Positions 1,728-18,732 of a DNA stretch of 23,438 nt are shown here, in pieces. A model generated the notes under the pieces. It made no database searches and had not been told where the DNA came from. It saw only the letters and a program-made list of their open reading frames with translations. The first letter of the stretch is position 1. The number at the start of each line of letters is the position of its first letter. A program made the position numbers and the translations under genes. This DNA is from a virus. The stretch lies in IMG/VR virus record IMGVR_UViG_3300025671_000541, positions 1 through 23,438 of that record; one strand, written 5' to 3'.

Positions 1728-2345
1728 CTATGCCCCCTTTATTCCGTAAAGCGCTGCGTGGGAATACTGCACAAAATCACCAAGTGTTGATGACTGGACT
1801 CTAATTGATGTAATTGCTGAAGTGCTTTGCCATAACCCACTATTAAGAATAACTTGTCCTGATCCATTCAAATCGTATCCTGCTAAATTTCTAGCAGTTT
1901 TATATTTTGAGGTATTGGCATAATCTAAAATATCAATAATTCCAGCGGCAAACATACTCGCTCCTGCTGCTGCGCCCGTTGCCGCTCTAAATACCATTCC
2001 TGTATTTCCTGCTGAAGAATCTTCTGCGTAAGCCGCAGCAGATGAACCATCTCCAAGAATATAATGTCGTGGGTAAGAAGCGGTGTCGCTATTAAATATA
2101 AGCGACACTCCATCGGCAGTTGCACCAGAACGAGAAGAACGCAGTAACCATCGTAATTGTAAATGTTTGTAAGTGCTAGGAATTGAAGTAAAATCAATAT
2201 AATCAACTGCTGTTGCGCCAACAGTTACAGTAGCGATGGATTCAAAGTCGCCAGGTAATTCATAAGCAGTATTACCTGCCAGCATACTCCCATAGGTAGT
2301 CCTGCCAGTAATACTACTGGCAGATAATTTATATACAGGTGTCAC
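1728..2345 (-). CDS. tail-tip / receptor-region protein, paralogue C (205 aa)
   Basis: The longest of the three related proteins. A leader of about 30 residues (TPVYKLSASSITGR, then MLAGNTAY) is absent from the other two. After it come the shared features: FESIATVTV, IDFTSIPSTYKHLQL, IFNSDT, ILGDGSSAAA, a YKTARNLAG segment, SAITSIRV and a final AALYGIKGA. The start is GTG, sharing its first base with the upstream TAG, with GGAG eight bases before it. A later ATG at codon 21 is possible but would remove the leader. It is likely part of the fibre tip or a cap protein; the exact function is unknown. Confidence 0.8.
   Translation of the reverse strand: MTPVYKLSASSITGRTTYGSMLAGNTAYELPGDFESIATVTVGATAVDYIDFTSIPSTYKHLQLRWLLRSSRSGATADGVSLIFNSDTASYPRHYILGDGSSAAAYAEDSSAGNTGMVFRAATGAAAGASMFAAGIIDILDYANTSKYKTARNLAGYDLNGSGQVILNSGLWQSTSAITSIRVQSSTLGDFVQYSHAALYGIKGA
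1729..1748. repeat. direct repeat, copy 2 (end of paralogue C)
   Basis: TATGCCCCCTTTATTCCGTA matches 19 of 20 bases at 782-801. It encodes the Tyr-Gly-Ile-Lys-Gly-Ala end of paralogue C and holds the ribosome-binding site of the HNH gene. The segment between the two copies carries the HNH gene and nearly all of paralogue B. Confidence 0.8.
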
Positions 2346-2662: not shown

Positions 2663-4789
2663 TTAGAGTGCGCCCATTAATAAAAGTGTTAATTCGTCTG
2701 CAACGCTTCCAGGACCAGTTAATACTACATCTGTTAGACCGCTAATTGTTGTTACTGTTGCTCCAGAATTTATTACTGTAGAACCAAGTGTTGGTGCTGA
2801 GTAACCAGAAACGTTTGACCAAGTAAGTCCAGTAGCAGTGCTTGAGTCAGCCTGTAGGTACTGTCCGTTAGTTCCAACTGTTAATTTACCTACAGTATCT
2901 GCTGCAGTTCCTACGATAAGGTCGCCCTTAGCGTCTATAACTGTGTTAGGAATTGCTGTGGCAAGATCAAATGCTGTGAAGGTGATTACCTCGAGCACAT
3001 CGTTGACAGCAAGTGCTGCTAAGGATGTAATACTTGTTCCATTGGTTGCCGTGTAGTCAGAACCACGAACTAGGAGTACACCGTTTAGGTATACCTGTTC
3101 TTTGCCTGCTAAGTAAGATAGAGTTAATCCGCCAGCATCAGTTCCTGATACAGAGGTTTCTCCACCTGTTGCTACGAACTTGTAGCGATAGATAGCAGCA
3201 GTTGAAGAGATAGATCCCCATGCAGAAAGTCCTGTATCCCATGCATACATGGCATTATCTACTGAGTTCCAGTAAATAGCTCCTTCAAGAATCGCATTTC
3301 CATCGTTATCTAATGTTGGAGGAGTTGACTTTGCACCTAGGTATCTATCATCAAAGTTATCATAGGCTGTCTCAGCAGCAGCAGCGCTTGCTGCAGCAGC
3401 AGTAGCGCTACCAGCAACAGCATCAACATATTGCTTTGTAGCAGCCTGTAGATTTGCTGAAGGGTCTGCGTGAAGAGTCAGAGCACCAGTCATTGTGGAG
3501 CCTGACTTAAAGACTACGGCATCGTAGAATGTACCACCAGCCTGAATTTCATCAGCAATCTCTTTAAGAGTATCAAGAGTTCCAGGAGCACCATTGATTA
3601 GATTGGTAATCTCTGTATCAATGTAACCCTTAGTTGCTGCGTCACCTGAATCTGTTGGAGTGCCAAGGCTTGTAATCTTCTGGCTGTTCATTGAGAACGA
3701 AGAAGTTGGCGCAGCCAAGTCTGTTACTTTAGATGTGCGTACCTGTGTATCAAAGTCAGAGATAGTGCTGGCTGTCTGAGTGCCAGTATGGTTAGCACGG
3801 GCTAGTGGGTCAGTTGCTAACTTGCTAAGAGCAATAGCAGCCGAAGCGTTAATGTCATCATTTACGATAGTTCCATCTACAATGTCAGAGGATGTAATAG
3901 AACTGTTAAGGCTTAGTTTGCTGTAAGCAATACCTGCTGATGCGTTGATATCTGCGTTTACAATCGCACCAGTACCGATGCTGGTTGTTAGGCTTACGTT
4001 GCCTGTGCCATCAAAGGATACGGCGCTAGCCTCTACATCTCCTGTAAGTTGGAAGTCTCTAGCAGTTTGTAGGGCTGTGGCTGTAGCAGCATTACCTGTG
4101 GTAGAACCAGAGGATCCAGTCACGTTACCAGTCACGTTACCTGTGACATTACCAGTTAGATTTGCCGTAACCGTATTTGCTGAGAAGTTACCTGAAGCAT
4201 CTCTAGCTACGATCGCAGAGTTTGTGTTGGTTGATGTTGCTGTTGTGGCAGAGTTAGCTACCTTGCCAACTGTTGAGATAGTAGCAAGCTTGGTATCTGT
4301 AATAGCAGCTGAGGCGTTTATATCCGCATTAGTGATAGCTCCATCAGCGATCTTAGCTGAGGTAACAGCGCTATCTGCAATCATTGCGGTAGATACTGTT
4401 CCAGTATCGGTAGTCTTTACTACGTTAGCAATAGTCAACCCGTGAGCCGATGTTGTGTTTTCGATATGAGTATTAGCTTCACGGAAGTCACGGCCGATAG
4501 CCATGTGACGAACCTTTGCACCAGCAGAGTGAGCAATTGCTGCAGTTCCATCGATGTTACGATTAACTGTTAATGTGTTGCTACCTGGGTTAGAGGGAGC
4601 AATTACATCGACAATTTCTTCGAGCGAGGTGTCTGGGTCGATGACAATGGTGAAAGTTTCACCTGCTGCTGGGGTGATGCTACCAAGCAAACCCGCTGCA
4701 GAGTTGACAACCATCGTTGTCTGAGAGGAGTTCATCGCTGATGTAAGCGTGGTCTCCTGAGATGTAGAGAGATATTTACGTATTGTCAT
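2663..4789 (-). CDS. tail fibre protein (708 aa)
   Basis: Modular fibre. Residues 1-110 form an N-terminal beta module ending IAHSAGAKVRHMAIGRDF, probably the virion attachment part. Residues 140-330 are low-complexity shaft with three copies of a G-x-I-x-N-x-D-I-N-A-S-A-x-I motif (149-168, 273-292, 305-324) and a run of GNVT units near 213-224. Residues 350-460 hold typical fibre elements (KITSLGTPTDSGDAATKGYI; GSTMTGALTLHADP). An Ala-rich helix follows at about 455-475. Residues 480-530 (YLGAKSTPPTLDNDG, then GAIYWNS) and 532-610 (QVYLNGVLLVRGSDYTA) match modules widespread in aquatic phage fibres. The C-terminus contains VIDAKGDLIVGTAADT. No enzymatic domain is seen. The ATG overlaps the adaptor stop (TAATG), with GAGG five bases upstream. 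Confidence 0.9.
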   Translation of the reverse strand: MTIRKYLSTSQETTLTSAMNSSQTTMVVNSAAGLLGSITPAAGETFTIVIDPDTSLEEIVDVIAPSNPGSNTLTVNRNIDGTAAIAHSAGAKVRHMAIGRDFREANTHIENTTSAHGLTIANVVKTTDTGTVSTAMIADSAVTSAKIADGAITNADINASAAITDTKLATISTVGKVANSATTATSTNTNSAIVARDASGNFSANTVTANLTGNVTGNVTGNVTGSSGSTTGNAATATALQTARDFQLTGDVEASAVSFDGTGNVSLTTSIGTGAIVNADINASAGIAYSKLSLNSSITSSDIVDGTIVNDDINASAAIALSKLATDPLARANHTGTQTASTISDFDTQVRTSKVTDLAAPTSSFSMNSQKITSLGTPTDSGDAATKGYIDTEITNLINGAPGTLDTLKEIADEIQAGGTFYDAVVFKSGSTMTGALTLHADPSANLQAATKQYVDAVAGSATAAAASAAAAETAYDNFDDRYLGAKSTPPTLDNDGNAILEGAIYWNSVDNAMYAWDTGLSAWGSISSTAAIYRYKFVATGGETSVSGTDAGGLTLSYLAGKEQVYLNGVLLVRGSDYTATNGTSITSLAALAVNDVLEVITFTAFDLATAIPNTVIDAKGDLIVGTAADTVGKLTVGTNGQYLQADSSTATGLTWSNVSGYSAPTLGSTVINSGATVTTISGLTDVVLTGPGSVADELTLLLMGAL
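3818..4345. repeat. dispersed repeat coding the fibre DINASA motif
   Basis: Three copies (4286-4345, 3914-3973 and 3818-3877) encode D/T-G-A/T-I-x-N-x-D-I-N-A-S-A-x-I-x-x-x-K-L. The protein motif is better conserved than the DNA, so this is a shaft repeat and not a recent duplication. A short GNVT tandem (about 4118-4153) lies between copies one and two. Confidence 0.75.
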
Positions 4790-5688
4790 TAGTACCTCGT
4801 GTAGTGGATTCGGACTGGGTATTGGCCACGCAACTTGCCTGCTTCCTCGGCAAGGCGTTGCTGGTAAAGTGCGAGCATAAATCGAGCAGCATTAGAGCCA
4901 GAGCCAAATTGAATTTTAGTATCAGCTTGGTCTGCCTCGGCAGAAGTAAATGTAAGACGGCCTGGATCGATAAAGGAGGCTAGACGATAAGAAGCCCCAT
5001 AAACAATAACATCTTTAGCAGATGAAGGTAATCCAGTTACTGTTTCAAAGACATCATTATTATTAACAAGAATGCTAGGTTCTTTACTGTACGTTACCTG
5101 CACAGTCCGACCTGGGGTAATACGGTCATAAACCGAAATAGTTTGACCAGTAGCGTACGTAGCTGAATTAGCCATTTTATCGTGACGCCATTGTTTGACA
5201 GGCATCCATTCCCCGGTAGGGCCAGGAGTGTCCCAGGATACCCCTAAAACGTCGTCTATGGCCGATGGGAGGCTGTATGTCGACTGGGTGGCAGTAAGAC
5301 TAAAGGTTGTTTTATCTACTCCAAAAAGCTGGGGAAAGACCGCTTTGATGCTGTCATTGATAGCCCTCTTGACAGAGAGTCTAGGGAAGGTAGGGGAGAT
5401 AGTTACCTTTGTGTTAGTGGTGTGGCTGGCAGCAGTTGTGCCTTGATAGCCACGACCGTATGGAGCTGCAGTTGCTGTGCTCGACACGCGGTCATAACTA
5501 TCCAGCCAGATCATTTCATCGTCGATTTCGACAACACCCTTGCCAATATTGGACACGCTACCTAGGTTTAAGATTAGAGCTGAGGAGTTGATGTCGGCAG
5601 TAAGGTGAGTGGTGCGATCTTGTCGCATCGTATAGCCATTAAGATTTAGGAGAACTTCATCTACCAAATTGGCAAGAGTTGATGTCAT
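4789..5688 (-). CDS. probable head-tail adaptor / connector protein (299 aa)
   Basis: Probably a structural adaptor sitting under the portal. The N-terminal helix (about 1-20, LANLVDEVLLNLNGY) is followed by a beta module (26-98) with IDDEMIWLD and GRGYQGTTAASH. After that come an amphipathic segment LSVKRAINDSIKAVFPQ and a beta-rich middle (YSLPSAIDDVLGV; QVTYSKEP). A helical C-terminal region (ASYRLASFIDPGRL, then FMLALYQQRLAEEAGKLRGQ) ends in IHYTRY. The layout recalls adaptor (gp11-like) proteins of short-tailed phages, and the position just before the fibre agrees. The identity is inferred; a minor tail protein is the alternative. The start shares a base with the upstream gene's stop at a TAATG junction, and so does the stop with the fibre start. 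Confidence 0.6.
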   Translation of the reverse strand: MTSTLANLVDEVLLNLNGYTMRQDRTTHLTADINSSALILNLGSVSNIGKGVVEIDDEMIWLDSYDRVSSTATAAPYGRGYQGTTAASHTTNTKVTISPTFPRLSVKRAINDSIKAVFPQLFGVDKTTFSLTATQSTYSLPSAIDDVLGVSWDTPGPTGEWMPVKQWRHDKMANSATYATGQTISVYDRITPGRTVQVTYSKEPSILVNNNDVFETVTGLPSSAKDVIVYGASYRLASFIDPGRLTFTSAEADQADTKIQFGSGSNAARFMLALYQQRLAEEAGKLRGQYPVRIHYTRY

Positions 5689-5960
5689 TAGGACGATATC
5701 CTTCTCAGAGCTTCGGGTGCAGCAAGACCATCGGTTCCTGCTAGCACATTACAAATACCTTGGATGTCAAGGAAGGTTTTGGGATCCGTGCGTCCATCTT
5801 TACGATTAAGCGCACCTTGGATGCTTTGGCCAGTTGTACCAGCCCATTCATTAGCCGCAAGGTTATCTCCCACAACGTTTAGTGGAGTTCTGTAAGTACC
5901 ACCATTAGCAAGTCGATTTAGTTCAGCACTAAACGGGGAACCTGTATTTCCGACTGCCAT
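5688..5960 (-). CDS. conserved phage protein of unknown function (90 aa)
   Basis: A small neutral protein: SAELNRLANGGTYRTPL, AANEWAGTTGQSIQGALN, then KTFLDIQGICNVLAGTDG and PEALRRISS. It has one Cys, no membrane segment and no recognised motif. Similar short proteins are, from memory, common in the structural clusters of aquatic phages near the adaptor. It may be a minor head or neck component. Both ends use TAATG junctions, so translation is probably coupled to the basic protein upstream and the adaptor downstream. It is clearly different in composition from the basic block it follows. Confidence 0.75.
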   Translation of the reverse strand: MAVGNTGSPFSAELNRLANGGTYRTPLNVVGDNLAANEWAGTTGQSIQGALNRKDGRTDPKTFLDIQGICNVLAGTDGLAAPEALRRISS

Positions 5961-6355
5961 TATCTATACCTCGCTGTCTTTCGAGCAATTGATTTAGGTT
6001 GCTTGGAGAACTGTTTACCAGACTTGGTATCACGACGCTTCTTAGCAGAAGTAGCCGCGTACTCTTTCTTGCTTAGAGACTGACGTGCCTTCTTAGGCAA
6101 GTAACGCTCTCCAGTTGCTTTAGAACCTTGAGTGCTAGGTTTACCAGATCTGGTTCCCCACTCTTCTTTAGTCCATTTAGATAAAGATTTTTGTTTGCTG
6201 GATTTGCTACCTGTGTAGCCACCACCAGCCTTCTTGTATTGTTGTGCTACAAGTTGCGCTTTACGCGCTGACCATTGTCCAGGTCTACCGCCTTTGGAAC
6301 CAGCAAGAACTCGTCTTTTAATAGAGTCGCGTAGACCTGGTTTGGTGTATGACAT
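5960..6355 (-). CDS. basic protein, DUF5872-like (131 aa)
   Basis: A strongly basic protein rich in Lys, Arg, Ser and Gly. The sequence KPGLRDSIKRRVLAGSKGG, then PGQWSARKAQLVAQQYKKAGGGY, LSKWTKEEWGTRSGKP, GERYLPKKARQSL, KKEYAATSAKKR and a KxAxxxARYR end closely fits a family I recall as DUF5872, found in phages, some giant viruses and bacteria. The domain number is from memory. The function is unknown; the charge suggests nucleic-acid binding. The ATG lies two bases after the preceding stop with only a weak AAGAAG signal. It is the last of six consecutive basic-protein genes. Confidence 0.8.
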   Translation of the reverse strand: MSYTKPGLRDSIKRRVLAGSKGGRPGQWSARKAQLVAQQYKKAGGGYTGSKSSKQKSLSKWTKEEWGTRSGKPSTQGSKATGERYLPKKARQSLSKKEYAATSAKKRRDTKSGKQFSKQPKSIARKTARYR

Positions 6356-6357
6356 TG

Positions 6358-6792
6358 TTACTTCTTGCCACCTAGTAGTCCAGGGAATAGACCCTTTGGA
6401 TTCATTGGCTTAGGTGACTTAGATGTGTACTTCTTAGGAGCAGCTTTCTTAACAGCAGCCTTTTTTACAGCAGGCTTGTTAGCATAAGCGGCACGAGCAG
6501 CATCTGGAGACTTAGCTGCAGGAGCAGCCTTAGCACGAGCAGCGGCTACGCGCTTAGCACCGTACATACGATTTACACCTTGGATAAACTCAGCACGAGC
6601 ACCCTTTGGGGTCTTACCTGCAACAGCAAGTGCCTTAGTCATACCCATCTTTTTAATTTTATCGATTGTTGCTTGGCTTACAGGAGTGTAAAGTCTTTCT
6701 CCCTTAGCGCCTTTGCCTCCACCTTTTGGAAGTCCTCTTTTTGGCTTGTATGCAGCACGTGCTGCGTCAGCCGTCTTATATGTTTTTGCCAT
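6358..6792 (-). CDS. histone H1-tail-like basic protein (144 aa)
   Basis: Lys/Ala/Pro-rich. The N-terminal half holds a small possibly folded segment (LYTPVSQATIDKIKKMGMTK, then KGARAEFIQGVNRMYGAKR). The C-terminal half is low-complexity, with KKAAVKKAAPKKYTSKSPKP recalling the tails of H1-like DNA-condensing proteins, and ends GLFPGLLGGKK. DNA binding or packaging inside the virion is plausible but unproved. DAARAAY occurs twice (near the start and about residue 90), a sign of internal duplication. The frame also has an ATG at 6798 with AAGG four bases upstream. The ATG at 6792 was chosen because it forms the TAATG overlap typical of this block, but both remain possible. Confidence 0.75.
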   Translation of the reverse strand: MAKTYKTADAARAAYKPKRGLPKGGGKGAKGERLYTPVSQATIDKIKKMGMTKALAVAGKTPKGARAEFIQGVNRMYGAKRVAAARAKAAPAAKSPDAARAAYANKPAVKKAAVKKAAPKKYTSKSPKPMNPKGLFPGLLGGKK

Positions 6793-7082
6793 TACCATTT
6801 TACCTTATCTGCCCAATATGCGGCACTCATTTTTCCCTTGGATATATTTCTACGATGACGCGCCTTGAAACTTTTGCGTTTCATCTTCATACGTTGTGAC
6901 TCTCCAGCTTTAGGTTTGCCAGCTGTGCTAGCACCCTGTTCTCCAAAGCGGATTGTTCTTACTTGTTCACCCTGCTTAGCCACAACTACATGAGACTTTT
7001 TGGGGTGAGTAGGGGTACGTTTAGGTTTGTTAAAGCCTGAAACTCCTGCTCTTGCGAGCCTAGGATCTCTTTTGCTTGCCAT
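6792..7082 (-). CDS. basic conserved phage protein (96 aa)
   Basis: Very basic and well ordered: SKRDPRLARAGVSGFNKPKR, THPKKSHVVVAKQG, then VRTIRFGEQGAS, and a C-terminal RKSFKARHRRNISKGKMSAA followed by YWADKVKW. From memory, nearly this whole pattern recurs in small proteins of aquatic phages, which means a conserved fold and not random Lys-rich sequence. The function is unknown. The central VVVAK and IRFG segments look like beta strands, and the KARHRRNI stretch like an Arg/His-rich helix. The start overlaps the end of the 47-aa gene by 23 bases, with GGAG three bases before the ATG. Confidence 0.8.
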   Translation of the reverse strand: MASKRDPRLARAGVSGFNKPKRTPTHPKKSHVVVAKQGEQVRTIRFGEQGASTAGKPKAGESQRMKMKRKSFKARHRRNISKGKMSAAYWADKVKW

Positions 7083-7203
7083 ACTCTCCGTACTTTCCTA
7101 ATACTGCTCTTACGGTTCCGTTCTTATTTAGACGAACCACTTTCCCGTCCTTAATCTGGACAGAGTTAAAACCGTGATGGGTCTTATGTTGTCCAGATGA
7201 CAT
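7060..7203 (-). CDS. small basic protein (47 aa), easily missed
   Basis: A short frame of 47 codons: MSSGQHKTHHGFNSVQ, then IKDGKVVRLNKNGTVRAVLG, ending KYGEYGKQKRS. It reads like a real beta-hairpin sequence, with no low complexity. It fills what would otherwise be a 120-base gap in a gap-free gene array. The ATG shares one base with the stop of the 97-aa gene (TAATG), and the end overlaps the next gene by 23 bases in another frame. The charge is positive, like its neighbours. The function is unknown. The evidence is position, coupling and composition. Confidence 0.65.
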   Translation of the reverse strand: MSSGQHKTHHGFNSVQIKDGKVVRLNKNGTVRAVLGKYGEYGKQKRS

Positions 7204-7496
7204 TATTTGATTCTGCCTTTTTTGTCGTAGCGACGTCCTTGTAGGATTGCTCCGGCAAGTTGACCAAGGTCTTTCTTATTAGAAGCTGCGGCAGCATTAG
7301 CTCTAGCTTTAGCAGCAGGGCGCATTGAAGGTGGTACAGTACGTGCTTCATTCTGTGCTCCAATTGTTTTACGATAACTGCCAGCATATTGACCAACTTC
7401 TTTTTTAATATTTCCAACGTATTTGCCTACAGTGCTAGCAGCTTTTTGAATTGGATTATACCCACTGGTATCGTAAAAAGATTTACGCATTGCCAT
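7203..7496 (-). CDS. basic protein of unknown function (97 aa)
   Basis: A Lys/Arg/Ala-rich protein: RKSFYDTSGYNPIQKAASTV, GKYVGNIKKEVGQYAGSYRK, then PPSMRPAAKARANAAAASNK, DLGQLAGAILQGRRYDKKGR. Two amphipathic helices are likely (about 14-45 and 76-88). There is no Cys, signal peptide or known motif. It lies within the block of basic proteins, with TAATG junctions at both ends. The start has no strong ribosome-binding site (the preceding codons are almost all Lys), so it probably depends on translation of the 49-aa gene upstream. Confidence 0.7.
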   Translation of the reverse strand: MAMRKSFYDTSGYNPIQKAASTVGKYVGNIKKEVGQYAGSYRKTIGAQNEARTVPPSMRPAAKARANAAAASNKKDLGQLAGAILQGRRYDKKGRIK

Positions 7497-7645
7497 TATT
7501 TCTTTTTCGCTTTCTTCTTAACGGCTTTCTTCTTGGCCTTCATCATCATGGCCTTTTCTTCCATCTTCTCAGCCTTTGCATACATCTTGGCTGCCTTCTT
7601 ACCCTTAGCTGTGTAAGGGAACTTTTTTCCGCTAACCATTGGCAT
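7496..7645 (-). CDS. tiny Lys-rich protein (49 aa), easily missed
   Basis: Forty-nine codons: MPMVSGKKFPYTAKGKKAAK, then MYAKAEKMEEKAMMMKAKKK and a tail of AVKKKAKKK. Nearly half the residues are Lys, so it is among the most basic products here. The first 15 residues have a defined pattern (SGKKFPYTAKGK); the rest is probably one charged helix. An AGGAGG ribosome-binding site lies eight to nine bases before the ATG. The ATG shares a base with the upstream stop, and the TAA shares a base with the downstream ATG. A role in binding nucleic acid is only inferred from charge. Confidence 0.75.
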   Translation of the reverse strand: MPMVSGKKFPYTAKGKKAAKMYAKAEKMEEKAMMMKAKKKAVKKKAKKK

Positions 7646-7914
7646 TAAATTAACCCTCCTGTTGAGTCGTCCGCTTTGAACGCCTTTCCTGCTCTGTTAC
7701 TTACCTCAACTGCCACTTGTATATCTTTCATACGAGTTGATGACGGTTGAATCCCTTGTGCTCTAGCATCTCTATAAGCCTGCAACTCAGCATCCCACTT
7801 CTTGGTAGACATACTGGTTCTAGTTGATGCTTCTCCTGCGTTAAGGCTTATGCCTAGGATTTTGCATCCAAAGCAACCTTCTACATCTGTAGGATGTGTA
7901 CTTCTGTGTAACAT
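7645..7914 (-). CDS. small protein with His/CxxC motif (89 aa)
   Basis: The N-terminus (MLHRSTHPTDVEGCFGCKIL) holds His residues at 3 and 7 and a Cys-x-x-Cys pair, a possible zinc or other metal site. It is followed by a helical region (WDAELQAYRDARAQGIQP) and a short C-terminus. From memory, proteins with HP..VEGCFGCK near the start are frequent in the structural clusters of actinobacterial and other aquatic phages, without a known function. GGGGG lies three to four bases before the ATG, and the stop overlaps the ATG of the 49-aa Lys-rich gene. Confidence 0.75.
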   Translation of the reverse strand: MLHRSTHPTDVEGCFGCKILGISLNAGEASTRTSMSTKKWDAELQAYRDARAQGIQPSSTRMKDIQVAVEVSNRAGKAFKADDSTGGLI

Positions 7915-7921
7915 ATTCCCC

Positions 7922-8173
7922 CTATACAGTTTCTACTGTGTACCCCGCTGCTTCTAGCGATGCTTTTTCTGCAGATGAAATTTCATAACGGTGACCACCC
8001 AAGTAATACAAGTCAGCATTAGCCAAATCTTCAGCATACGGAAAACGTTCTTGACGATAGACATCATTCTCCTTGATTACAGTGATACCACGTTCCAGTT
8101 TATATCTGTAGTGCAGTACGTTGTCTCCTGCAGGTCCTTCAGATACTGTTGGTGGTGTGAAGTAGAAAGCCAT
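7922..8173 (-). CDS. small structural-region protein of unknown function (83 aa)
   Basis: The first gene after the major capsid gene. It is beta-rich and aromatic: MAFYFTPPTVSEG, HYRYKLERGITVIKEND, RFPYAEDLANADLYYLGGHR, ending EKASLEAAGYTVETV. A strong AGGAG lies five bases before the ATG. The position suggests a capsid-associated or head-completion protein, but I recognise no family and cannot decide. No Cys or membrane segment is present. Confidence 0.72.
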   Translation of the reverse strand: MAFYFTPPTVSEGPAGDNVLHYRYKLERGITVIKENDVYRQERFPYAEDLANADLYYLGGHRYEISSAEKASLEAAGYTVETV

Positions 8174-8236: not shown

Positions 8237-9223
8237 CTAAACGGTTGGACGAACAGACGATGCTGTTTCGATACGCCATAGAGATTCTGAACGGTAACGG
8301 TTCCATCCAAGTACGCCGTACCAGCCGATTGGGCGGAGACGCATTAACTTGTCTGTAACTGGACCGATAACTGTGTGTGGTTCTTCTGCAACTGCTTCTG
8401 CAAGAGCCTGTTGACCCATTACGAATGTTGAGAACACACGAACCTGGCTTGCGCCAGCTCCTGAACCAGCCTGTGAGTTTGGTAGGCGTGGTGACTCTAC
8501 GAAAGCAACGCCTTCGTATGTTCCAAGCTCACCTGCGTAGATGTTTGAGGTATCTACGTACTCGTGTGGCTGACGCCATCCTGCAGTTCCTGTTTCAGCA
8601 CGAAGATCGTGTGAAACCTCTGGGTGAATGTAGGAAGCGTATAGAGAACCACGGCGTGGCACAACGTTTGCTGCGCGAAGCTTTGCTACTGCGTAGCGGA
8701 TATCGCGTGACTTGATTGTGTCAGAACCAGTGATGGTTGTGATTGCTGCAGAGGTAGAAAGTGATCCAGCGGATTCGCGGATTACCTGTGATCCACCATT
8801 TAGAACATCACGGACAACTGTGTCGAGTGAGTCATTCATGTTGAATGCAACAATGTTTGCAAGAGCTGGCTCTACATCAGCGAGTGAGAAGAGGTCGAGC
8901 TTGCGAGTTGAAATGATTGAGTTACCATACTCATTGAGGGTGACTGCGACTGTGCTTGTTGCAGGAATTGCAACAGCATCTGGATCAACAGTTTCTGTCA
9001 ATGGTGAGGTAGCTACTGCGAGGTCATTGTAAAGTTGGAACAATACAGATGAACCTGCGTGGGATTGCTGTGCAGGCTTCTTGTCAGCTGCAGCACGGAA
9101 TGACGGAACGGAACGAAGAGCGAACTCTACGAGCTTGTCATACGCCTGAGTAACAAGGTTAGCACCGACAACTGTACCCGCTTGACCTGCTGGCAAAGCA
9201 GCAGAGGTATACAAGTTAGGCAT
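8237..9223 (-). CDS. major capsid protein, N4-gp56 type (328 aa)
   Basis: The shell protein of the head. Family features seen: N-terminal region with TQAYDKLVEFALRSVPSF, then the central VTLNEYGNSIISTRKLDL (about 94-111) with LANIVAFNMNDSLDTVVRDV, then KLRAANVVPRRGSLYASYIH followed by PEVSHDLR (about 181-208). After these come IYAGELGTYEGVAFVESPR and a C-terminus with PIGWYGVLGWNRYR. These fit the N4-gp56 family of HK97-fold capsid proteins as I recall it. It follows the scaffold gene by 26 bases and has AAAGGA upstream of the ATG. No protease or scaffold fusion is seen. The sequence looks complete. Confidence 0.92.
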   Translation of the reverse strand: MPNLYTSAALPAGQAGTVVGANLVTQAYDKLVEFALRSVPSFRAAADKKPAQQSHAGSSVLFQLYNDLAVATSPLTETVDPDAVAIPATSTVAVTLNEYGNSIISTRKLDLFSLADVEPALANIVAFNMNDSLDTVVRDVLNGGSQVIRESAGSLSTSAAITTITGSDTIKSRDIRYAVAKLRAANVVPRRGSLYASYIHPEVSHDLRAETGTAGWRQPHEYVDTSNIYAGELGTYEGVAFVESPRLPNSQAGSGAGASQVRVFSTFVMGQQALAEAVAEEPHTVIGPVTDKLMRLRPIGWYGVLGWNRYRSESLWRIETASSVRPTV

Positions 9224-9249: not shown

Positions 9250-9732
9250 CTACGATTGTGAACCGTAGATAAGTTTTAGGATTTCATCTTCAGAGTTAGC
9301 ATTGTTAATACGAAATGCTATATCTTCAGACTTGTCGGGGGATAAAGCACCACTTGTTACAGCATCTATTTGTCGCAAAGCTGCGACGTCATGCTGACTT
9401 ACTTCCTGCTCTGGTTTAACTTCAAAGCCAAATACATCGGCATTGTTGTCTAACCAAGCTGCGATAGCTTCTTCCGAAGCATCCAAGTCAGATGGTACAA
9501 ATGCGGCAACCTTTGGGTTTACGCCACGGGACGAAAATACGTCCTTTAAAATCCGCTCTCTTTGGGACTTGCTGAGTTCACCTAGTGAACTTTCGAGTTC
9601 CTTGTTTCTCTTTTGCTCAGACTTCAAAGCCTTACGCAGTTTCTTTACAAGGTCAGTTTCCGATTCGTATGATGGCGTAAAGTCATCATCTTCATCTTCG
9701 TCATCCCAGTAGTTATCGCGGTTGTTGCTCAT
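9250..9732 (-). CDS. probable capsid scaffolding protein (160 aa)
   Basis: Probably the internal scaffold that guides shell assembly and is then removed. The N-terminus is extremely acidic (YWDDEDEDDDFTPSYESETD). A charged coiled coil follows at about 25-62 (LVKKLRKALKSEQKRNKELE). The middle is a small helical domain (SRGVNPKVAAFVPSDLDASE) and the C-terminus is helical (EDEILKLIYG). Low Cys, high charge, a coiled coil and a position directly before the capsid gene are all typical of scaffolds, which share little sequence. The start has AAAGGGAG upstream. The first gene after a 119-base gap, it may begin a separately regulated unit. Confidence 0.75.
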   Translation of the reverse strand: MSNNRDNYWDDEDEDDDFTPSYESETDLVKKLRKALKSEQKRNKELESSLGELSKSQRERILKDVFSSRGVNPKVAAFVPSDLDASEEAIAAWLDNNADVFGFEVKPEQEVSQHDVAALRQIDAVTSGALSPDKSEDIAFRINNANSEDEILKLIYGSQS

Positions 9733-12921: not shown

Positions 12922-15900
12922 TTAGTCCTTTGCTTTCATAGTTCCTGCAAATACACGATAAAACATTGGAGCGAATGCTGGATTCTCTAACATTAAACTG
13001 TCAGCAAGTTCTTGTAGTTGTGAACGTAACTCGCTTGCATACCAGTGTGAACTGCCTAAATCAGGGTTTGCGGTTACGCGAGTTTCTTTTAGTAGTTCTA
13101 TTGCTCTAGAATATTGTTCATAGAATTGTGCTGTTTCTTTGTATACAGGAGACATCTGAAATGCTTTATCCTGTAAAGCTTTAGCAACGTTAGCAATACG
13201 CTCATTGTCAGTACCAACATTAATAATAGATGCTGGAGCAGCATCACCGAAACGCTTGTTAAGTTTGTTTATTTCACCTGCATACCAGACATCTGAGTAT
13301 CCCATGGCAGCTTGCATCTCAGAAATCTGAGACTTAACCATCTTGTAAACAAGTTCTTCCGCAGCAGAAGATAGCTCTTCTGTGTTTAAAGGTTCACGAC
13401 GTCCTGTTTTCTTTTGCCAAGCGTAGTATGCTGTAGCACCTTCTCCACCAGGGAAAAAGAATGGAACGATATCACCGTTCTTAGTAGCATACTTTTCTGC
13501 TACATCAGGATGCATATTCAAAAATGTCCAAGCATCTTTAGTACCAGTAACAGTACGTGTAGAACCACCGAGAATAGCTAGCAGATTGCGCTCGCCAAAC
13601 TCTGTTGAGAACTCATGAACTGCTGCAAAGTAATCACCAGGATGCTTACGGCTAATCTGATCCCATGCATTGTAAAGCATAGTCATGCTAGCAAAGTCAA
13701 CCTTTTTGTTATTAGGAATCTTTGCAAATATTTCTTGAGAAGGTGTAGCTGGTGATATGCTCTGGAATAAGGCTGTTAGTAATCCAATACCACGAGACAT
13801 ACCCTCGGCATCCTTAAACAACTGATTTCTTGCGGTGTCGTCCATTAAAGGATTTTCGCCATATTGACCAGTAGAAGCTAGGTATGATGCCCAGTCTTTT
13901 ACTCCACGCTCAACTGTTTTTTGATCGTTAAGAAGATAATAAAATGTTTTACGCAACCAAGCTGGAGCAAGAGACCCTACAGGATCTGTTATTTCTCCGA
14001 ATGGCATTACTACATCACGTATAGTATTCCATACAGGTCCGAATGCTGATGACTTACCACTTGCCTGAAAGGCAAACTGTCCTACAGGACCAATACCGGG
14101 AACTCCTGGATTAACAGCACCAAAAACTAAGTTAAGTGACTGTACAGGAGCTGTAAGTTGTAGTGCCTGAGCAGAATCTATATTTCTACCTACTAAGCCT
14201 CCGATAAAACTTCCAGCAATTGGGTAACGGAAACGTTTTTCACCAAACTCATCTTCATAGATGAAGCCTTGTCCCTCGTCATACTTAACACCAGTTATGT
14301 CGTAAATAGCGCTTGAGCCTTCCTTTGTTAAGGAATTGTAAGCACGACCTAGTTTGTAAAAGTTTACTGGGTTAGAAACAAATAGTTGTCCCCATTTTTT
14401 AACGGTATTAAGGTGCGCCTGAATGAATGGGAATATAAGACGCATAGCCTGAGCAGACTGTAACTGCTTAGATGCATCATAAAATAATTCTTTGGTGTAC
14501 TTAGCGCCTTGCTTAGAAGCCATTGAGTTAAGGTTAGCTAGGGTTATTCCACCCTCATGGACGTAATCATCTCCACGTCTCTTTAGTTCCTTCTCAATAA
14601 TCTTGATAGTTTGGTGCTTCTTGCCCCAAGCCTTGCCATTCTTACGAAGTGGTGCTAAAGTTTTTATGGCAGAATCTTGAAGTTTCAATAAGTCATCAGT
14701 ATCTAGCATTGTAGCATAACGGCCTACGTGGTCCCAATAAGCCATACGGAACTCAGGTCCAAAAGTAGATAAGTTTTCAAGTCTAGCATTTAGATCAAAG
14801 AACCAATCTACTGCTTTAGTAAGCATTTTAGGCTCACCATCCGCAAAACGCTTAGTGCGAGATAATAATACTGTGGATTCTGGCATGTCTTCTCGCTTGA
14901 AGAATGATGCTAACTGAGATTTGAAACCAATCTCAAGATCATCCATCTCTACAACATTCTTGAGTTTAGCGTAATCTGGGATAGAAATCTCTGTTGTTTT
15001 GTTACCTTGAGTAACAGTTATTTTACCTTTAGCAAGGATCTCACGAATATACTCAGCCTTAGGTCCTTTACCACCAATAGACTGGATAGCGTATTCATAA
15101 GAACCAGTAGAGTTAATATCAAATAGATATGTTCTTAAGTTATCTACGTTTATATTATCTTTTGAAAAAGGCTTGGTGATATCTTTTAATATGATTCTGT
15201 CAAAGTCAGATACTTTTACACCAGTTACTTCTTTAGAAGTACGAGCACCACGATGTATCTTTTCTAATATCTCAAGACCTTGTTTTCTGGTGGTAAGATA
15301 ACTAATCAAATCATCTTGTAGTTCAGGTGTACGAGCGCGTGCTACAAGTGGCATTAGATCATCTTTGTTGAAACGCATAAGTGTTAATGCAAGGCCCTTG
15401 TAATAGGACTCGTGATTATTATTAACTACTTCGTATATCTTACCTACGAAAGCAGTGCGAGGATCACCAGCACTGATACCGCGTTTCATGAATTGCAGAT
15501 ATTCATCTAAAGCATCTGTTACAAGCTTCTCGGTTATATCATCTTTGAAGTTATTGCCAAATATGTCATTTTGAGCTTTGCCGATACGAGCGGCAAGTGC
15601 CTGCATCTTTGTACCCTTAGGGTTGGCCATGGCCATAGCTAAAAACTGAATTGGATGATTAAATATACTATCGTGTCCTGAGAAGAACATACGAAGTTGC
15701 ATTTCACCAATATTGCGCATTGTGTAAGATACACGGAATGCTAGCTGAGCTGTACGCCAGTAGTCACCTAATTGGTTTGCTGTTGTGGTTACAGCTTTAG
15801 CCTTACCATACAACGGTACATTTTTGTTATAGGTATTGATAGCGTCAATAATAGGACGTGTATCTGGCAGACGAATAACATCATCTAGGAACTGGTGAGC

Positions 15901-18732
15901 GTAGTTAGCACCAGTCATAGCTAGTTCTTCACCATTGGTAAAAAGAAGTTTAGGGTCTGTTCCCTGAGCTAAGTTAGCAACATTATACTGACGTACAATA
16001 GCTTGCTCTTTACCAGCAAGTTTTAGAGCATCATCTAGGACTTTAGCTAATTCAGTATCACCTTTACCAACTGTAGTAACAAGGTGTTTTTGCATCTTAC
16101 GCATGCCGTCCATAATGACTTTAGCACGTGCTGTGTAATCTTTTTCACTGATAACTTTATTTATTACATCATCAATTAAATCTTGTGGTACTTTAGCTGT
16201 GGTAAACCAGTCATTTAGGCCACGTGATAATCTATCCAAATCGTTCAAAGGCAGAATAGATGAACGTATGTATTGATTAGTTAGAACCTTTTCTGCTCTT
16301 TCAATAAACGATACAGCCTTCAAACCTACAGGTTCAGCAAGCTTAATTAGTGGATTACTACTGTTTAGGGCTAGCTCAGTGCGTAGCAATAGGCTACGAG
16401 CAATCTGTGGATCACTCTCAGGAGAAGCTAAATGCCTCAGCATTACAGCAATAACGCCTTCTGCGGTGTTAGCCTTAGCTAGTTCATCAACAATTTCGAC
16501 ATCTAACTTGCGTCCGAATAGACGATCTAGACGCATTGTATTGGTCTCTTTAGCTACAATCTCTGCAACTGCAAGGAATCTTTTACCGAATAGATACCGC
16601 ATGGCTTTGGTTGTATTTGCAGATAATCCACCGAATAGTGAATCTGTCAGACCTACTTCACTAGAAAAGAACTCTCTAGCATAGCGAGTATCAGCAATTT
16701 TCATGTCTAAATCCATGACTTTAGCTATCCCAATATTATCAGGATCATTCAACATCATTTTAAGCAAATCAGGATCTTTGGCTGCATAATCGCGTAAAGT
16801 TTCAATATCCTTTAAGCGTTGTGCCATTCCTTCAGATTCTAACCTAGCATTATCAAGGGCTTGCTTACTACTTGATAGAGTATCTTCTGCTCTTTCGATA
16901 ACACTATCTAACTTCAACATAGCGTTTGCAGCCATAGTTGGCTCTGCAGATTCAGCTAATACTTCGCTAATTTTAACCTTACGAGCAGCTACATTGTCTA
17001 TATTAGTTAGAACTATGCCACCAGTATCACCAAAGATTGAACGAATATTAGCAAATCCATCTACTTTGTAGATATCTGAAATCATATCCACGATAGTAGC
17101 CATCATTCGTTGGTCTACGCCACCTTCTTTAGCAGCAATAACTGAAATATCTTGTAACCATGTACCTAAAGGTTTAGCTACAGTATCTTCAAGCATAGAA
17201 ATTGCGACAGAACTTACAGCTGTATTCTCAGTTCTTAGAGTATTAAAAGCTTCACGTGTAGGTGCTGGTAATGTACCGTCATCTGCTGCTTGTTTAATTC
17301 TTTTTAATAGTTCTGTACGACGCTTTAGTTCCTGTGACCAAGCTTTTTGTGATAAACTAGTCGTGTCATCAGATAAATCAAGTAACTTAGGAGCTTTGCC
17401 ATAGTAAGAGGCAACAAATTCGTCATTACCACGTGTCGCAAGTGCTATCGAGCCAGGTGCTTGTGGTAGTTCATCAAAAAATACTCCACCAGGAAAAGCT
17501 CCTGATGTATTATAGTAATCCGAAGATAACTTAGATAGTGCATCAACAGTTTCTTTTTGCTTACCTGTGTTGATTCGTTCAAAAATGAACTCGCCAATGT
17601 TACGGTTATTGAGGGGCAAACCTCCTGGACCTGCAAGGTTGGCAGCATTCTTAGTATCAGCAGCATATACTTTAGCCGCAGCAATATAATCTGCTTCAAT
17701 GCGTGCTTGTTGTGCCTTCTGATATACCTGCTCAGCCTTGAGGTACTTGTTTTCCGCTTGACGAGTAACTTCCTTAGCAAGTCCGGAACGCTCTTTAATG
17801 AGCCTTCTTTCTTCCTTGGTAAGGCCAGCTGCCTCAGCTAAACGATTAGATTCTTTTTTCAGTTCTTCAGCAGCAGCAAGTTTAGCTTTCTTAAGTTCTT
17901 TTCCACCTTTACCAATTTTGGTAATAGCACCAGGGCCTAACCAAATTGTAGGGTCTAAAGCTACGTTAAGTGTGGCATCAATAATGCCTGACATAACTTT
18001 ATACTGCGTACTATTAGGATCTGAGCCTACAGTTTTAAGTGCAGCACGTCCAAGAGTAAAAGATTTACCATTGATAAGTCCATAAGCACCCATAGCCTTG
18101 ACTTGAGCCTTCTGTACTTTAGATTTCTCGTTAATAAAGAAACCAGAACCTGTATCTACTTTAGTAGGATTAGCTAAAAATGCCCGTCCCAGCTGACCAA
18201 GTTGTGTAGTTTCACCAACTAGTCCTAAAGGACTAAGGTTTTGTACAAATTGACTTAAATCTGGCTTGTCTTTTTGAGTTGCAAGTGCATAAGCATCACG
18301 TCCGACTGTGGTTACATACTCATAAGGCGAGCGAAGTGCAGCAAAAAGCGTACGACTTGTACCTTTGAATCCACCATATAACACATCTTTGATATCTGCT
18401 GCTAGTGATTTATCTTCATCTAGTGCAGACTTGATATTTTTAGTGTTAATTAAATCTTGTTTTAATTGTGCTAGTCCGTCAACTGAAGCAATCTTACCAA
18501 TACCAGGTGTATCTGGCTTCAAACCAAGCTTTACTGCAGACATAATGAAGTCTTTACTCTGGTTTGGATAAGAATTTACCCATGCATCAAAGTTCTGAAA
18601 TTGATTAGGCGAAAGCATAGCCATCTCAGTTGAAATAACGCGATCAAGTTGAGACTGGACATTATCGAATATTCCAGTAACTTTTATACGTTTATTCTTC
18701 TCAGGATTCCATGCATCTAAAGGATTAGCCAC
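12922..18732 (-). CDS. giant virion protein, probably internal or ejected (1936 aa)
   Basis: One unbroken frame of 5.8 kb, a quarter of the window. The start is GTG, sharing a base with the previous TAG, with AAGG six bases before it. Seen: an N-terminal region with DATLNVALDPTIWLGPGA, a charged coiled coil at about 277-357 (KKESNRLAEAAGLTKEERR) and a second near 604-655. A central segment at about 995-1030 reads DYWRTAQLAFRVSYTMRNIG, then EMQLRMFFSGHDSIFNHP. A Gly-rich hydrophobic stretch lies at about 1505-1563 (IAGSFIGGLVGR; AVNPGVPGIGPVG), and the C-terminus is helical. No polymerase, protease or lysozyme motif could be confirmed. Size, helices and position between portal and capsid genes suit an internal protein ejected at infection. 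The YTMRN..EMQLRM element recurs, from memory, in large structural proteins of other aquatic phages. Confidence 0.75.
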   Translation of the reverse strand: MANPLDAWNPEKNKRIKVTGIFDNVQSQLDRVISTEMAMLSPNQFQNFDAWVNSYPNQSKDFIMSAVKLGLKPDTPGIGKIASVDGLAQLKQDLINTKNIKSALDEDKSLAADIKDVLYGGFKGTSRTLFAALRSPYEYVTTVGRDAYALATQKDKPDLSQFVQNLSPLGLVGETTQLGQLGRAFLANPTKVDTGSGFFINEKSKVQKAQVKAMGAYGLINGKSFTLGRAALKTVGSDPNSTQYKVMSGIIDATLNVALDPTIWLGPGAITKIGKGGKELKKAKLAAAEELKKESNRLAEAAGLTKEERRLIKERSGLAKEVTRQAENKYLKAEQVYQKAQQARIEADYIAAAKVYAADTKNAANLAGPGGLPLNNRNIGEFIFERINTGKQKETVDALSKLSSDYYNTSGAFPGGVFFDELPQAPGSIALATRGNDEFVASYYGKAPKLLDLSDDTTSLSQKAWSQELKRRTELLKRIKQAADDGTLPAPTREAFNTLRTENTAVSSVAISMLEDTVAKPLGTWLQDISVIAAKEGGVDQRMMATIVDMISDIYKVDGFANIRSIFGDTGGIVLTNIDNVAARKVKISEVLAESAEPTMAANAMLKLDSVIERAEDTLSSSKQALDNARLESEGMAQRLKDIETLRDYAAKDPDLLKMMLNDPDNIGIAKVMDLDMKIADTRYAREFFSSEVGLTDSLFGGLSANTTKAMRYLFGKRFLAVAEIVAKETNTMRLDRLFGRKLDVEIVDELAKANTAEGVIAVMLRHLASPESDPQIARSLLLRTELALNSSNPLIKLAEPVGLKAVSFIERAEKVLTNQYIRSSILPLNDLDRLSRGLNDWFTTAKVPQDLIDDVINKVISEKDYTARAKVIMDGMRKMQKHLVTTVGKGDTELAKVLDDALKLAGKEQAIVRQYNVANLAQGTDPKLLFTNGEELAMTGANYAHQFLDDVIRLPDTRPIIDAINTYNKNVPLYGKAKAVTTTANQLGDYWRTAQLAFRVSYTMRNIGEMQLRMFFSGHDSIFNHPIQFLAMAMANPKGTKMQALAARIGKAQNDIFGNNFKDDITEKLVTDALDEYLQFMKRGISAGDPRTAFVGKIYEVVNNNHESYYKGLALTLMRFNKDDLMPLVARARTPELQDDLISYLTTRKQGLEILEKIHRGARTSKEVTGVKVSDFDRIILKDITKPFSKDNINVDNLRTYLFDINSTGSYEYAIQSIGGKGPKAEYIREILAKGKITVTQGNKTTEISIPDYAKLKNVVEMDDLEIGFKSQLASFFKREDMPESTVLLSRTKRFADGEPKMLTKAVDWFFDLNARLENLSTFGPEFRMAYWDHVGRYATMLDTDDLLKLQDSAIKTLAPLRKNGKAWGKKHQTIKIIEKELKRRGDDYVHEGGITLANLNSMASKQGAKYTKELFYDASKQLQSAQAMRLIFPFIQAHLNTVKKWGQLFVSNPVNFYKLGRAYNSLTKEGSSAIYDITGVKYDEGQGFIYEDEFGEKRFRYPIAGSFIGGLVGRNIDSAQALQLTAPVQSLNLVFGAVNPGVPGIGPVGQFAFQASGKSSAFGPVWNTIRDVVMPFGEITDPVGSLAPAWLRKTFYYLLNDQKTVERGVKDWASYLASTGQYGENPLMDDTARNQLFKDAEGMSRGIGLLTALFQSISPATPSQEIFAKIPNNKKVDFASMTMLYNAWDQISRKHPGDYFAAVHEFSTEFGERNLLAILGGSTRTVTGTKDAWTFLNMHPDVAEKYATKNGDIVPFFFPGGEGATAYYAWQKKTGRREPLNTEELSSAAEELVYKMVKSQISEMQAAMGYSDVWYAGEINKLNKRFGDAAPASIINVGTDNERIANVAKALQDKAFQMSPVYKETAQFYEQYSRAIELLKETRVTANPDLGSSHWYASELRSQLQELADSLMLENPAFAPMFYRVFAGTMKAKD

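Follow-up and report, generated by a model that had tools for sequence, protein, structure and literature searches.

A variable cassette of basic-protein genes is conserved among the head genes of phages with an N4-gp56-type capsid

We analysed a 23.4-kb contig of an aquatic phage (the window), whose gene set lies on the minus strand. Genes were arranged in the order terminase, portal, three large unassigned genes, scaffold-like protein, capsid, B, A, g1 to g6, g7, adaptor and tail fibre. Near the capsid gene lay six unrelated genes for basic proteins (g1–g6, 7645–5960, minus strand). The features of this region were as follows.

9250–9732, minus strand: scaffold-like protein, 160 aa, acidic, pI 4.4
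8237–9223, minus strand: major capsid protein, N4-gp56 family
7922–8173, minus strand: gene B, 83 aa, conserved, after the capsid gene
7645–7914, minus strand: gene A, 89 aa, conserved border upstream of the cassette
7496–7645, minus strand: g1, 49 aa, pI 10.4, net charge +16, Lys-rich
7203–7496, minus strand: g2, 97 aa, pI 10.5, net charge +15
7060–7203, minus strand: g3, 47 aa, pI 10.5, net charge +8
6792–7082, minus strand: g4, 96 aa, pI 11.8, net charge +22, phrog_7595, widespread
6358–6798, minus strand: g5, 146 aa (144 aa from an in-frame ATG at 6792), pI 10.8, net charge +31
5960–6355, minus strand: g6, 131 aa, pI 11.2, net charge +31
5688–5960, minus strand: g7, 90 aa, non-basic, conserved border downstream of the cassette
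4789–5688, minus strand: SU10-type adaptor protein, 299 aa

The capsid protein matched TIGR04387 (E 2.5e-33; 115.7 bits against a curated cut-off of 60), confirming the N4-gp56-type capsid of the original prediction. Its closest annotated relatives were from Streptomyces phages (54–58% identity, ~45–46 kb); one of them, Streptomyces phage Manuel (L376), carried a 19-tRNA cluster immediately upstream of the capsid genes. Elsewhere in the window, a 1936-aa protein (12922–18732, minus strand) in the interval between portal and scaffold had no match in Pfam, PHROGs or NCBIfam, and may be a large virion protein, judging by its size and place. Three proteins of 170–205 aa (269–781, 781–1317 and 1728–2345, minus strand) resembled paralogues, sharing the motif 'FTSI' close to the N-terminus and 'LYGIK' at the C-terminus; an HNH endonuclease gene (1281–1724) sat among them.

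The g1–g6 proteins had pI values of 10.4–11.8, a K+R content of 21–39% and a summed net charge of +123, unlike B, A, g7 and the capsid, scaffold-like and adaptor proteins (pI 4.4–8.7). Arginine was abundant besides lysine in g2–g6, g1 being the exception. The six are contiguous, and the 27 predicted genes of the window include no other run of basic genes; simple arithmetic, assuming exactly six basic genes, gave a random-placement chance of ~22/296010 for this contiguity. A further basic ORF of 35 aa at 78–185 was probably spurious. The six ORFs originally predicted (49, 97, 47, 96, 144 and 131 aa) were recovered at the same coordinates, g5 having either 146 or 144 aa, and family comparison agreed that each belongs to a separate sequence family. 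The block had been placed right after the capsid cluster; it is nearby, but the non-basic genes B (8173–7922) and A (7914–7645) intervene. Five overlapping junctions had also been claimed. Four of the five inside the block overlap or share a base, but g5 and g6 are separated by a 2-bp gap; the outer junctions, A/g1 and g6/g7, each share one base. Overlapping junctions were common throughout the genome of the window, so those of the block are not special.

Within the block, g1 had a good Shine–Dalgarno sequence 5' of it and a conserved N-terminus (MPMVxGKKFPYTAKG). The g5 protein consisted of a conserved core (about residues 40–100) followed by a K/A/P-rich tail, and the segment DAARAAY was repeated inside it, close to both ends. 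The tail had been described as H1-like; this likeness amounted to its K/A/P-rich composition, and no histone or winged-helix family was matched in Pfam, PHROGs or NCBIfam. We therefore rejected g5 as a histone H1 homologue, the winged-helix globular domain having no match in Pfam or NCBIfam. A phmmer match of g5 to an aldehyde dehydrogenase appeared to be a composition artefact. By charge and hydropathy all six proteins looked disordered, a crude measure that is at odds with the structure model of g6 described below. Pooled pN/pS values were 0.15 for g1, 0.16 for g3, 0.18 for g4, 0.34 for g5 and 0.22 for g6, compared with 0.19 for the capsid gene; for g2, two usable pairs were too few close relatives for an estimate. 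Thus, g1, g3, g4, g5 and g6 are real genes under purifying selection.

When viral contigs were scanned with the capsid protein, 137 relatives were found and 80 retained. In the relatives, as in the window, the genes ran in the order scaffold, capsid, B, A, block, g7, adaptor. Pooling all scans gave 79 dereplicated loci, in which 394 of the 451 genes between gene A and the SU10-type adaptor were basic, with a median of 5–6 per block; these counts are approximate, genes in unannotated contigs having been called by our own length-based method. Twenty basic families had at least three members each in these loci, and the g1–g6 labels occurred in 41 different combinations, both identity and order varying between fixed flanks. 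Total cassette charge varied widely among relatives. Cassette members served as seeds in several of the scans, so the sampling of the 79 loci was not free of bias. The set obtained with the capsid protein as seed agreed with the pooled result: 84% of its 317 inner ORFs were basic, this set being redundant and including some g4-seeded loci. These results indicated that the head-gene cluster conserves the cassette as such, keeping its charge and swapping its member proteins. We found no paper describing such a basic cassette in a search that covered few subscription journals.

Other arrangements of the slot were also observed. One contig carried a DUF6496 protein as an alternative cassette member (L320, 5682–5846; E 2.5e-9, above the cut-off), and two others (L321 and L324) had basic genes between the capsid gene and B instead of after A. 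Glycosyltransferases were the main non-basic guests, found in many relatives; insertions resembling them lay in the cassette at L061 2008–2742 and L320 6901–7962 (phrog_34859; GT2-like with TPR). Streptomyces phage Manuel and three contigs (L068, L071 and L080) had the same capsid type and a slot without basic proteins, showing that the block is not essential to that capsid.

Such exchange between fixed flanks would also be expected of host-directed proteins, injected or made late, that bind nucleoid or ribosome or counter defence and vary in an arms race; their charge would then serve nucleic-acid binding in the cell and not packaging. T4 internal protein I*, an injected anti-restriction head protein, is a precedent, and both the high turnover (the 41 combinations) and the absence of the cassette from phages of some hosts are in keeping with this explanation. 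However, g4 and g6 were strongly conserved (pN/pS 0.18 and 0.22) and not fast-evolving, and known anti-defence families were unmatched in Pfam, PHROGs and NCBIfam. We consider a host-directed role rather improbable.

Co-occurrence of the families with one another and with head genes had been set beforehand as a test, and a scatter of homologues that never occur together was clearly not what was found. In a search seeded with g5, in which the capsid was not used, all 70 of 70 new loci contained head-cluster genes; the capsid gene was present in 67, and the other three loci were incomplete. Relatives of g5 and g2 occurred solely beside an N4-gp56-type capsid among the fetched loci. Those of g4 and g6 were also found in phages with other capsids (HMO-2011 type, Siovirus, P22-coat and several cyanophages), and g6 lay within 2.5 kb of g4, often directly adjacent, in 45 of 64 loci without the N4-gp56 capsid family. 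Basic genes clustered around g4 in both settings: in the N4-gp56 lineage, 64/122 genes within 1.5 kb were basic vs 1/88 beyond 3 kb (Fisher 3e-18), and in other phages, 128/367 vs 23/368 at the same distances (Fisher 3e-23). The multi-part set originally proposed is partly supported: the block is conserved among the head genes, and packaging, DNA binding and DNA condensation would be its putative functions. A rigid six-part machine is disfavoured, since membership and order vary freely, charge being the one property kept, and the block is sometimes absent.

The same neighbourhood contrast bears on whether the block is ordinary filler, that is, small AT-rich ORFs whose lysine tracks base composition and which share no common role. 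The window has a GC content of 0.43, the three contigs lacking the block have 0.55–0.65, and g1 and g5 are of low complexity, all of which would suit filler. It does not explain why genes farther than 3 kb from g4 on these contigs are hardly ever basic (the 1/88 above), why arginine is abundant too, except in g1, or why the genes are under purifying selection and g6 is modelled with a confident fold. With both the neighbourhood contrast and selection contradicting it, this explanation is highly improbable.

The g4 protein matched phrog_7595 over its full length (positions 2–96 of 96; E 6.3e-42). This is a catalogued family without an assigned function, with more than 590 relatives among the matches listed. 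A more divergent g4 query reached Vibrio and Aeromonas phages, in which the g4 domain was built into larger proteins. A Peptidase_S78_2 domain followed it in Aeromonas phage 2L372D and Vibrio phage P018-4; in gp125 of Vibrio phage ICP1, annotated 'capsid protease' and encoded between the portal and scaffold genes, the order was reversed, with the protease part first. The g4 profile hit all three fusions at positions 11–96 or 12–96 (E 8e-6 to 1e-4 in a nominal million-sequence search), and PHROGs independently assigned them to phrog_7595 (positions 9–96 of 96; E 1e-10 to 1e-11) as well as to head maturation protease families. Compared with ICP1 gp125 and its Aeromonas and Vibrio homologues, g4 is the shared domain at nearly full length, itself without the protease part. 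That the domain occurs both before and after the protease speaks for a genuine modular fusion. Capsid maturation proteases act in the procapsid, so the fusions would place the g4 domain there, and as sequence evidence they support a head association of g4. A g4 segment was also present within phrog_220 ('minor head protein and DNA pilot'), and elsewhere g4 was located either between the genes for head morphogenesis and capsid or in a group of P22-type head/tail genes.

Several other identities were considered. A zinc finger was rejected for g4, as 35 relatives had no conserved Cys. A cellular chromatin protein was also rejected, all 40 genome matches being MAGs or binned contigs and none isolates. 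Long g4-containing ORFs in L337, L365 and L371 were likely due to upstream read-through of an open frame and were not taken as fusions; phmmer matches of ICP1 gp125 to designed toroids appeared to be composition artefacts. The g4 structure model, a beta hairpin followed by helices, was weak (pLDDT 67.3), too weak for interpretation, and a sequence search of the PDB with g4 gave nothing significant. Weak matches to Tlr6f (DUF5754, PF19058) were obtained for 22 of the 35 g4 relatives (best E 0.011), all of them below the cut-off (best 16.2 bits against 27.4). Tlr6f has been described as a conserved protein, without known function, of polinton-like viruses, virophages, giant viruses and some phages (PMC4642659). 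We treat the possible relationship of g4 to Tlr6f as a lead only.

The g6 protein matched phrog_17747 (E 3.9e-19) and phrog_14910 (E 1.3e-31), in that order. Both families are already catalogued without function, and they are encoded by separate adjacent genes in several pelagiphages and roseophages. The C-terminal half of g6 was fused to g4 in one metagenomic contig (L139) and to a tape-measure-like segment in another (L235), each a single case. An AlphaFold model of g6 was helical and confident (pLDDT 86.7), and its significant relatives were solely viral proteins; comparison with the PDB by sequence and by fold gave nothing significant. A match of residues 9–111 to DUF5872 (PF19197) was weak (23.1 bits, under the Pfam cut-off of 27.5), and this likeness is likewise a lead only.

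The protease fusions favour a role in head assembly at least as much as DNA binding. The cassette proteins could be accessory factors of head assembly that act in the procapsid, as modules that bind scaffold, protease or shell and need neither stay in the mature head nor contact DNA. The g4 domain is fused on either side of the protease domain of capsid proteases and adjoins scaffold or capsid genes in several phages, the neighbouring scaffold-like protein is acidic, and families resembling Tlr6f, themselves without known function, occur widely in viruses. An assembly role leaves unexplained, however, the five other unrelated families, which are alike only in positive charge and freely exchanged; moreover, Peptidase_S78_2, the sole protease family sought, was absent from 12 contigs taken from the scans with the capsid protein, g4 and g5. 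We regard this explanation as possible at a fairly low probability.

Together, the fusion of g4 to capsid proteases and a slot kept filled with basic proteins suggest that the cassette products are probably head-associated. The explanation we prefer, and to which we give about an even chance, is that the varying basic proteins are head-associated and would most likely lie within the filled head, where DNA charge would be partly neutralised. Positive charge is steadily supplied beside the capsid gene by proteins that are freely exchanged, which points to charge within the head as what counts. The cassette would be expressed late, together with the capsid, scaffold and adaptor genes, and its products would enter the procapsid, perhaps attracted by the acidic scaffold. 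In the filled head they would lie on the inner shell and the DNA and neutralise part of its charge, and at least some may leave the head with the DNA. At 65–70 copies of each protein, 10% of the charge of a 40–43 kb genome (the size of longer related contigs) would be neutralised, with ~4 MDa of protein against 26–28 MDa of DNA, which is physically possible. A search of the virion proteomics literature (HMO-2011, S-EIV1 and S-CBS2) gave no report detecting any cassette member, and one paper states that evidence for a substantial contribution of basic proteins to the neutralisation of phage DNA is lacking (PMC3281028).

The best analogy for the cassette may be the variable internal head proteins of T4, of which its products would be the functional counterpart. 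T4 internal head proteins are packaged, cleaved by the prohead protease and injected. IPI, IPII and IPIII resemble the cassette in being several small, basic, head-linked proteins whose gene set varies between conserved flanks. In contrast to them, the cassette, which encodes putative head proteins, is contiguous and lies beside the capsid gene, and no annotated match to T4 internal-protein families was found for g1–g6 in PHROGs or Pfam profiles. In the chlorovirus PBCV-1, several unrelated virus-encoded basic proteins are located on the packaged DNA (PMC3281028). The likeness to the cassette is the idea of unrelated basic proteins sitting on packaged DNA; PBCV-1 differs as a eukaryotic virus with another capsid and with experimental support for these proteins. 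A bolder possibility, which we think unlikely, is that interchangeable basic families coat the packaged genome of many aquatic tailed phages as a phage chromatin, with g4 as a module of the head interior that also occurs in capsid proteases and possibly in Tlr6f of eukaryotic polinton-like and giant viruses.

In tailed phages, metal ions and polyamines are generally considered to neutralise the packed DNA, with scant room for protein (PMC3281028). A slot that conserves charge while swapping proteins would be an exception to this across a widespread group of aquatic phages. For phrog_7595, the fusion to capsid proteases provides a first functional clue, and its role is testable in the cultured phage ICP1.
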